Shown: one piece after another, positions 15,998-19,563 of the stretch
Numbering within the stretch: the stretch's first letter is position 1
How the letters are laid out: each line of letters opens with the position of its first letter
DNA from: Gemmatimonadota bacterium
GTDB lineage: Bacteria; Gemmatimonadota; Gemmatimonadetes; Longimicrobiales; Gaopeijiaceae
Assembly: GCA_028873845.1 (NCBI GenBank)
Contig: JAPPNO010000129.1
Coordinates: 1 to 64,000 of the forward strand
Direction of reading: 5' to 3'
Length of the DNA stretch: 64,000 bases
Notes under the pieces: model-generated
The model's input: only the letters and a program-made list of their open reading frames with translations
Told to the model about the DNA's origin: nothing
The model's database searches: none
Program-made: the position numbers and the translations under genes

Positions 15998-17770
15998 TCA
16001 AGTCCCCCGTGGAAACGAGCGTTCCAGCGTGGGCTGCAGCGAAGCCGCGAAATGCCGTTTGGCCTCCGCACCCGTGGGTGCTTCCAGGGCGGCCGCGGCC
16101 GCGGCACGGATTTCGTCGAGGCGGCAGTTGCGGACCATCCGCCCGATGCCCGGCAGCGAGCGCCAGGCAACGGAGAGCACGTCCACGCCAAGGCCGAGGA
16201 GGAGCAGCACGCCGAGTGGCCGGGTGGCCATCTCGCCGCAGGCGCTCACTTCCACGCCGGCGGCGCGACCGGCCTCGGCCACCAGCGAGATCTGCCGCAG
16301 CACGGCCGGGTGAAAGGGATCGAAGAGATGCGCCAGCCGCGTATTCGTGCGATCCACGGCCAGCGTGTACTGGACCAGGTCGTTGGTTCCGATGGAAAGG
16401 AAGTCGGCGTGGGTGGCCAGTCCCGGGGCGGCCAGGGCGGCGGCGGGTGTCTCGATCATCGCACCGACCTCGATCGAGCGTTCGAAAGGCAGGTCCTCGC
16501 TTTCAAGATGGTCCTGCGCCATTGCGAGCAGTTCGCGCACCGTTTCGATCTCGGTACCGGTGTTCACCAGCGGAACCATGATGCGCAGGTCGCCGTGGAC
16601 GGCGGCTCGCAGCATGGCGCGCAACTGGATCAGGAAGAGCTCGGGCTCGTCGGGACAGACGCGCACCCCGCGCCTGCCGAGGAACGGGTTGTCCTCGGCG
16701 GGTGTGCGGAGAAAGACGGGGAACTTGTCTCCGCCCAGGTCGAAGGTCCGGATGAGGACGGGATGGGAGGGGAAGGCTTCCGCCACTTCCCGGTACGCAC
16801 GGTACTGTTCTTCCTCTTCCGGGACCGTACTGCGGCCGACCACCAGGAATTCGGTCCGAAAGAGCCCGACCCCGCGGGCACCGAGCGCCCGGGCGCGGGC
16901 CGCTTCGCCCGGAAGGTCGAGGTTCACGCGCAGGGTAATGGCCTGGCGGTCAAGGGTGACCGCCTCCTCCCGCGCCATGGCCGGGGTCTCATGCCCCCAC
17001 CCGCGGATCGCGGCACGGCGCCGCTCGAACCGCTCCTCTTCCCCGGCGTCCGGTCCGATCACCACCCGGCCGGACCAGCCGTCCACGATGATGGCCTGAC
17101 CATCGGCGGTGCGATCGGTGACATCGCCCAGTCCCGCGGCTGCCGGGACTTCGAGCGAGCGGGCAAGGATGGCCCAGTGGGACGTGCGCGTTCCCCGGTC
17201 GGTGGCAAGGGCCACCACGCGCGACGGATCGAGGAGGGCCACGAAGCTGGGTGTGAGGTCCTTCGCCACGGCAACGATCTCGTGTTCACCGTCCCCGATC
17301 CCCCACGGATCCGGAAGGCCCAGCAAGCGGCCGAGAATCCGGACCTTGAGGTCGTCCAGGTCGTTCAGACGGTCCAGTACCATGGGATGCGATGTACGCG
17401 ACCAGCGGTCCTTCAGCTCAAGCATCCGCCAGTCGAAGGCGCGCGCGGCCGTGAGCCGGTTCTCCGAGATGTAGCGTCTCGTCCCCTCCACGACCTCGGG
17501 ATCGTCCAGCATCAGGATCTGCGGATCGAAGATGCGCGCCTCGATGGGACCCAGGCGGGCGGCGGTCTGCCGCTTGATCCCTTCCAGCTCCTGCCGTGCC
17601 CGCGCCCGTGCCCGCCGGAACCGCTCCAGTTCCCTCGCTCCGCCCTCCGGGGGAACCGTCACGCGCGGCACCTCGGGGACATCGCGGTCGATCCTGTGCA
17701 CGGGGCCCCTGGCGATCCCCTCCGAAGCGGAAAAGCCCTTGAGGACGACCGGGGCTGCCGTGTCATTCAC
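15998..17770 (-). CDS. ptsI: PTS enzyme I (phosphoenolpyruvate-protein phosphotransferase)
   Basis: Enzyme I takes phosphate from PEP and passes it to HPr. The 590-residue protein has the N-terminal HPr-binding and phosphohistidine domain, with the active His at about 198 in GTRTSHWAI, and a PEP-binding TIM barrel. The barrel contains GLFRTEFLV, the IMVPLV motif, the TNDLVQYTLAVDR motif and the catalytic Cys in VSACGEMA. The GTG start at 17770 overlaps the ptsH stop by 8 bases, so the two are coupled. A few residues follow the family end (LQPTLERSFPRGT). No sugar permease is nearby. Confidence 0.93.
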   Translation of the reverse strand: MNDTAAPVVLKGFSASEGIARGPVHRIDRDVPEVPRVTVPPEGGARELERFRRARARARQELEGIKRQTAARLGPIEARIFDPQILMLDDPEVVEGTRRYISENRLTAARAFDWRMLELKDRWSRTSHPMVLDRLNDLDDLKVRILGRLLGLPDPWGIGDGEHEIVAVAKDLTPSFVALLDPSRVVALATDRGTRTSHWAILARSLEVPAAAGLGDVTDRTADGQAIIVDGWSGRVVIGPDAGEEERFERRRAAIRGWGHETPAMAREEAVTLDRQAITLRVNLDLPGEAARARALGARGVGLFRTEFLVVGRSTVPEEEEQYRAYREVAEAFPSHPVLIRTFDLGGDKFPVFLRTPAEDNPFLGRRGVRVCPDEPELFLIQLRAMLRAAVHGDLRIMVPLVNTGTEIETVRELLAMAQDHLESEDLPFERSIEVGAMIETPAAALAAPGLATHADFLSIGTNDLVQYTLAVDRTNTRLAHLFDPFHPAVLRQISLVAEAGRAAGVEVSACGEMATRPLGVLLLLGLGVDVLSVAWRSLPGIGRMVRNCRLDEIRAAAAAALEAPTGAEAKRHFAASLQPTLERSFPRGT

Positions 17771-18071
17771 CGAAACCGCCCCTTACCAGGCGTGCCAGCT
17801 CCTTCACTGCCACGTCCGCATCGTCCCCCTCGGCCGTTATGGTCAGCGAACTCCCCTTTTCCGCGGCGAGCATCAGCACTCCCATGATGCTCTTCCCGTT
17901 GACGGCAAGCCGCTCCTTCCTGACCTGAATGGATGACCCGAAGCTGCCCGCGAGCTTCACGAACTCGGCGCATGGCCGCGCGTGCATTCCCAACCGGTTG
18001 GGAACCTCCACCTCCAGCGAACAGATTGCACCGCCGTCGTGGTCCGGAGCCGCGTGCCCCGATTCACTCAT
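17763..18071 (-). CDS. ptsH: Phosphocarrier protein HPr
   Basis: The 102-residue protein is HPr with a short N-terminal extension. The phospho-His is His30 in NRLGMHARP (His15 of standard numbering), and the regulatory serine is Ser61 in GKSIMGVLML (Ser46 standard), the residue phosphorylated by HPr kinase. Both sites are intact, so it can take part in both the PEP-driven and the ATP-driven reactions. It overlaps the end of hprK by 8 bases and the start of ptsI by 8 bases. Confidence 0.94.
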   Translation of the reverse strand: MSESGHAAPDHDGGAICSLEVEVPNRLGMHARPCAEFVKLAGSFGSSIQVRKERLAVNGKSIMGVLMLAAEKGSSLTITAEGDDADVAVKELARLVRGGFGE

Positions 18072-18714
18072 AGTCCTCGATCAGCGAATCGCGGGGGTTC
18101 ATCGCCCCGCGCAGGCCATCGTCGAACCGCCTCGGGACATCGACACCCGAGTAGGCGAGAAGCTGGTTCATCGCGATGACCTCGCTGATCGCGATCAGGT
18201 TCTTGCCCGGATTGAGCGGGATCGTGAGCCTCGGGAGTTCCACGCCCAGGATCCGCGTCATTTCCCTGTCCAGACCCGTCCGGTCGTACTCCTGTGCGTC
18301 GTCCCAGGCCTGCAGATCGACGATCACCTCCACCCGCTTGCGCTGCCGGGTGGCGCGCGTTCCGAACATGGACGCGATGTCTACGATGCCGATGCCCCGG
18401 ATCTCCATGTGGAACCCCTGGCGTTCGTGTCCCTTCCCCATCAGCACGTCGTTGCCTCGCCTCGAAACGAACACGAGGTCGTCGGCGACGAGCCGGTGGC
18501 CGCGCTGCACGAGTCCCAGAACGCATTCGGACTTGCCGATCCCGCTGGGCCCGGTGAAGAGAAGGCCGATCCCGTAGACATCGGCCAGCGATCCGTGTAC
18601 GGTGGTGACCGGGGCCAGCACCTCCTCCAGATACGGTTTCAGTGCACGGTAGAAATCCCCCGTTTCGATCCTGGTGCGGAAGACCGGCACACGGGCTCGC
18701 TCGGCGAGCCGCAA
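18064..18714 (-). CDS. hprK: HPr kinase/phosphorylase, catalytic domain (split from its N-terminus)
   Basis: This frame carries the complete catalytic domain of HPr kinase/phosphorylase, which phosphorylates or dephosphorylates HPr on the regulatory serine. Walker A is GPSGIGKS (55-62) and the HprK signature MEIRGIGIVDI is at about 103-113. The N-terminal domain lies in a different frame just upstream (18713-19024). Read from the TTG at 18714 the domain starts at RLAERARVPVFRT, which is the point where the intact family protein continues after VTRG..VP. An exact AGGAGGTG lies 13 bases before this TTG. The likely explanations are a one-base indel (natural or sequencing error), frameshifting, or a genuinely split gene. 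It overlaps ptsH by 8 bases. Confidence 0.8.
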   Translation of the reverse strand: MRLAERARVPVFRTRIETGDFYRALKPYLEEVLAPVTTVHGSLADVYGIGLLFTGPSGIGKSECVLGLVQRGHRLVADDLVFVSRRGNDVLMGKGHERQGFHMEIRGIGIVDIASMFGTRATRQRKRVEVIVDLQAWDDAQEYDRTGLDREMTRILGVELPRLTIPLNPGKNLIAISEVIAMNQLLAYSGVDVPRRFDDGLRGAMNPRDSLIEDYE

Positions 18715-19024
18715 GGAAGCAGGCCGGCACCTCCTGGCCCCGGGTCACGAAGACGGCCGGCACGTCATGGGCGAAGACGCCACCGAGACGCTCCTCCACC
18801 TCCCGGGGCTCGAGTGTCGACAGGTAGCTCATCTCGGTCTTGCCGAACACCTGCGCGCGTCCTTCGGGGAACCGGTCCGTGTATCCCGCCAGCGACAGAC
18901 CCGGACTCGACACGTCCGAATTGCCGATGCGTCCGTCGAGGGGGACGCGAGGGGTGAGGAGCTCCAGCTGCAGCGGCGCCTCCCTGGCATCGAAAAGCTG
19001 CCCGACCGTGACGAAGGCGGTCAC
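18713..19024 (-). pseudogene. hprK: HPr kinase N-terminal domain, out of frame with the catalytic domain
   Basis: From GTG at 19024 about 104 residues match the N-terminal domain of HprK: VTVGQLF, LELLTP, NSDVSSPGLSLAGY, QVFGKTEMSYL and VPAVFVTRGQEVP. Similarity stops at ACFL near 18713, while the family sequence resumes one frame away at 18714. This frame stays open beyond that point only because GC-rich shadow frames rarely contain stops, and the continued translation is nonsense. It starts 42 bases after the hpf stop. If the frame change is real, the intact enzyme can be made only by frameshifting or as two chains. Confidence 0.75.
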
Positions 19025-19066: not shown

Positions 19067-19384
19067 TCACCCCGGGGAGCTGGAGGACGCGTGGCGGAAA
19101 TCCTTGCGCCGCGAACGGTCGCGCTTGAGCCGGCGTTTCACGTGTGTGTCCAGGTCGTCCAGCGCCACCCGGAAGTCCGGTCCCTCGCCACGGGCCACGA
19201 GCGGTTGGCGCCGGCTCCTGGAGACGATCGCTTCGACCGTGTGCGACCGGCCCTGAAGCCGGAATATCACGCTAATATCCATCACCGCGGGGTCGAAGCG
19301 GGGCCACCGTTGCGAGAGGGTCTCCACGCGGTCGCGCAGTGACGGGTTGACTTCACATCCGTGGGCTGTGATCCGTGTCGGCAT
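19067..19384 (-). CDS. hpf: Ribosome hibernation-promoting factor (HPF/RaiA)
   Basis: The 105-residue protein has the fold pattern of ribosome-associated inhibitors: PTRITAHGCEVNPSLRDRVETLSQRW, a central strand DISVIFRLQGRSHTVEA, then DFRVALDDLDTHVKRRLKRDR. It binds the 30S subunit and stops translation in slow growth. The short form is present, without the long-HPF C-terminal domain. The ATG at 19384 has GGAG 8 bases upstream. Position directly before hprK-ptsH-ptsI recalls the hpf-ptsN-hprK-ptsH cluster of Proteobacteria. The upstream gap 19385-19563 contains no gene. Confidence 0.85.
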   Translation of the reverse strand: MPTRITAHGCEVNPSLRDRVETLSQRWPRFDPAVMDISVIFRLQGRSHTVEAIVSRSRRQPLVARGEGPDFRVALDDLDTHVKRRLKRDRSRRKDFRHASSSSPG

Positions 19385-19563
19385 CCTGTCGTCTCCATGG
19401 TGGGAATTCGGGGTGAGGTCCAACCGTTGCGACTTCCGGTTCCGGCGTAACGCACTGCCCGCCCGCGGCCATCCGCGAAACGGAACCCGGCTGCATCGGG
19501 CGGGCGGCGCGCGCATTGCTAGTTTAGCACCCCGAGCCCACCGGGAAACCCCGAGGACCCCGT

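Follow-up and report, generated by a model that had tools for sequence, protein, structure and literature searches.

The described systems closest to the locus analyzed here are other HPr kinases (HprK) and, for a change of reading frame within a gene, prfB. The N domain is naturally absent from the HprK of alpha-proteobacteria, and an artificially truncated L. casei HprK that is missing 127 residues keeps its activities (PMC2937029; PMC2405797). In prfB, the frame changes at CUU UGA, where the tRNA re-pairs on UUU; AGGGGG stands one codon ahead of this site (PMC13245932). The hprK gene in our window (the whole stretch of 64,000 nucleotides that was analyzed) resembles two-domain HprK in having both Pfam domains, the Walker A motif, and the gene order hpf-hprK-ptsH-ptsI; it differs by a single extra base between the domains. 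Taken alone, its C-terminal fragment is like the C-terminal-only HprK of alpha-proteobacteria in domain content; however, the alpha-proteobacterial enzyme is encoded by a gene that evolved as such and has a start of its own, whereas the fragment forms the end of a two-domain gene in which the N-terminal part is still conserved. The likeness to prfB consists of a +1 shift and an upstream Shine-Dalgarno (SD)-like string; the shifty stop, the re-pairing, the right spacing and the conservation that belong to prfB are missing.

The draft genome to which the window belongs is 96.5% complete and has 137 contigs, of which the window is number 81. The cluster lies on the minus strand, in the order hpf (19067–19516; ribosome hibernation factor family, PF02482, E 1.1e-8), hprK, ptsH (17763–18071; HPr, PF00381, E 1.9e-27) and ptsI (15998–17770; enzyme I, PF02896, PF05524 and PF00391). 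The sequence-only reading had described hprK as interrupted within an otherwise intact cluster whose HPr keeps its regulatory serine; the Pfam searches bear this out, that is, hpf, ptsH and ptsI are all intact, and HPr retains the Ser-46-type motif NGKSIMGV.

The frame break in hprK is confirmed: the window sequence contains it close to the place where it had first been noticed. The N-terminal frame (codon starts at 1 mod 3) runs from GTG 19024 and contains no stop codon near the junction, remaining open to the stop at 18068–18070; the C-terminal frame, one base ahead, runs from TTG 18714 to the stop at 18064–18066. When each frame was searched separately, both domains were found, Hpr_kinase_N at 18718–19024 (PF02603, E 1.3e-22; query residues 1–109) and Hpr_kinase_C at 18064–18714 (PF07475, E 9.5e-56), so the claim that the N-terminal and catalytic domains are one base apart in frame holds. 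The C-terminal part retains the whole Pfam catalytic domain; the further claim that its catalytic motifs are intact stands for Walker A (GPSGIGKS). Plain translation of hprK would give a protein of 318 residues in which the C-terminal two thirds is not HprK.

Using the two frames joined as one read-through protein (as a search query only), we obtained an hprK match in 53 of the 59 genomes searched, including the window's own; 20 of these are other genomes of the same genus. The closest named records are metagenome-assembled genomes (MAGs) of Longimicrobiales/Gemmatimonadota, and the best protein identity to an intact HprK of the same genus is 94% (G021, the Longimicrobiales MAG OX639991.1). 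Aligning the locus across close relatives, a check proposed with the sequence-only reading, gives a single intact frame for every one of the 20 other same-genus genomes that have the gene, unlike the window, in which hprK has no single continuous frame. Across the class, 347 of the 394 genomes searched have hprK; among the matches listed, it is interrupted only in the genome of the window.

The alignments also locate the extra base. Exactly one base of the window is missing in all intact relatives that align there (27/27), and MAFFT places it at 18707 on the minus strand; from MAFFT and blastn comparisons with same-genus and same-family loci, the placement is uncertain within about 18714–18703. 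The shift had at first been assigned to TTC-CTT-G; homology instead puts the extra base near 18707, within GCGGCTCGCCG and approximately 7 nt downstream, with the homologous N-terminal frame extending some three codons beyond TTC, to approximately 18708. Across the break point, the sequence in close relatives is Phe-Leu-Ala-(Ala or Thr)-Ala. From these comparisons, we consider it highly probable (about 0.9) that the locus is an ordinary hprK with one extra base near 18707 that is private to the draft genome, and that it is neither an evolved recoding site nor a split gene. A sequencing error or a recent indel, as had been proposed among other explanations, is thus supported, because the base is private to the assembly and the close relatives are single-frame.

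The substitutions bear on the age of the break. Relative to the closest relative, the changes at first, second and third codon positions number 6/4/16 in the N-terminal half and 7/2/53 in the C-terminal half; changes in the C-terminal part that are confined to the branch of the window are distributed 3/0/21. Both halves are therefore conserved, as first described, and their third-position divergence means that the break is either an artifact or very recent. Neither half shows a sign of decay under relaxed selection in its substitution pattern, which we rejected as an explanation; judged by these counts, ordinary constraint on hprK either still holds or ended only very recently.

Between an error and a mutation we infer, at close to even odds and with a slight preference, that the extra base is a consensus or assembly error; if so, the cell would make a normal single-chain HPr kinase. 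We compared the window with its syntenic counterpart in G021, a complete genome, and within the 64 kb a clear change of phase inside a gene occurs only in hprK. A window riddled with errors was accordingly rejected, the remaining candidate (51826) being intergenic. When the comparison with G021 was extended to about 205 kb of the draft genome for an estimate of the error rate, two more private in-gene frame breaks were found. A well-conserved S9-peptidase-like gene (L080:17055) lacks one base where seven G stand in a row, and a subtilase-like gene (L083:2708) lacks four bases in a GTGG-type repeat; the names of both genes come from reading their translations, not from a family search. A rate of about one private frame break in 70 kb fits errors scattered through the consensus, although it does not prove them. 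As it stands, the break is of little weight: it is likely that the draft genome has either an assembly error here or a mutation of its own.

The explanation that survives next best, with odds somewhat short of even, is that the base is a real and recent insertion that knocks out hprK, as the first step to a loss that has been completed in a relative of the same genus. Beyond the insertion, ribosomes would then read out of frame as far as 18068, and the product of 318 residues would lack the catalytic domain, leaving the enzyme inactivated or truncated. Consensus indels are commonest in homopolymers; the extra base is outside any homopolymer, which favors a real insertion. The relative in question (G018) favors it as well: HprK was found neither at its usual place nor elsewhere in that genome, which has the order hpf-ptsH-ptsI-metK in the interior of a 327-kb contig, with ptsH beginning 82 bases after hpf (L151:6332-7084, G018:C22) and its HPr keeping GKSIMGV. 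Since G018 cleanly lacks hprK between hpf and ptsH, the gene appears to be dispensable in the genus, and its real loss in the genome of the window is plausible. However, full constraint is still visible in both halves, and the assembly's other private frame breaks, one of which falls in a run of G, point to background errors. If the insertion is real, it would add to the signs of an ongoing loss of HPr serine kinase, with retention of HPr and enzyme I, in this Longimicrobiales genus, and it would bear on the roles that remain for HPr and enzyme I in these bacteria.

In G030, which was considered as a second case of hprK loss, the end of a contig adjoins ptsH. G011 has no hprK, ptsH or ptsI match; in G011, G033 and G097, searched as whole genomes, neither HPr nor HPr kinase nor enzyme I has a family match, which suggests that the cluster as a whole has been lost repeatedly in this family.

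Functional readings of the break, that is, a split enzyme and recoding, are improbable even when taken jointly. The less improbable of them, which we still regard as very unlikely, is that translation starting at TTG 18714, or reinitiation, yields the catalytic half as a product of its own, a short HPr kinase that acts alone or with the N-terminal half. In its favor, the C-terminal part holds the whole Pfam domain, the truncated L. casei enzyme and the alpha-proteobacterial enzymes without the N domain provide precedents (PMC2937029, PMC2405797), and an SD-like string, AGGAGGTG, is located upstream of TTG 18714. The string is at 18735–18728, 13 nt ahead of the TTG (15 from AGGAGG), as had been stated, and 12 nt from CTT. 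It encodes Gln-Glu-Val in frame, and four intact genes (L002, L003, L012 and L013) have the identical string in the corresponding position, so it is not specific to a split gene. Nor is it a special mark of the break, because the window contains seven copies (3676, 18619, 18728, 28274, 40839, 46045 and 48498; 1.8 expected from dinucleotide shuffles), a second of them within hprK itself (18626–18619); the string is ordinary coding sequence that is untied to the break. The usual SD spacing is 5–9 nt, shorter than that found here. TTG is rare in the genes of this genome (2.6 per 1000 codons), and the codon at the place of TTG 18714 is TTG in none of the same-genus relatives, so this TTG arose from another triplet and is without a conserved counterpart. 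The N-terminal frame has no nearby stop that would permit reinitiation, and among the matches listed no other genome is split at the same place. Internal ribosome entry yielding a two-chain enzyme, which had been offered as one explanation, is thus not supported, the string being common to intact genes and the spacing being wrong. A narrower form, in which a real and recent insertion would have made a functional C-terminal-only kinase that starts at TTG 18714 and follows an SD-like coding stretch already in place, is less probable still; if true, it would be a snapshot of how a short HprK could arise.

Programmed +1 frameshifting at TTC-CTT-G in the manner of prfB, which would yield the full-length enzyme, is the least probable explanation, and we rejected it because the site has the wrong chemistry and spacing and is not conserved: although a +1 shift is what is required and there is an SD-like string upstream, CTT is followed by GCG instead of a stop, with the N-terminal frame open to 18068; +1 re-pairing would fall on TTG and not on TTT, so CTT-G cannot re-pair as CTT-T does; the 12 nt between AGGAGGTG and CTT is not the one-codon spacing of prfB; homology sets the frame change approximately 7 nt further on; and neither the frame change nor the site is kept in the same-genus, aligned or class-wide relatives, which need no shift and mostly have CTG where the window has CTT.

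In the class-wide set, hprK gives two matches each, with places partly listed, in a few genomes that are more distant and for the most part poorer. One of these, of low completeness (G034; L169:2502-2514, G034:C125), has an hprK that is frame-broken elsewhere in the gene, at about residue 205–209.
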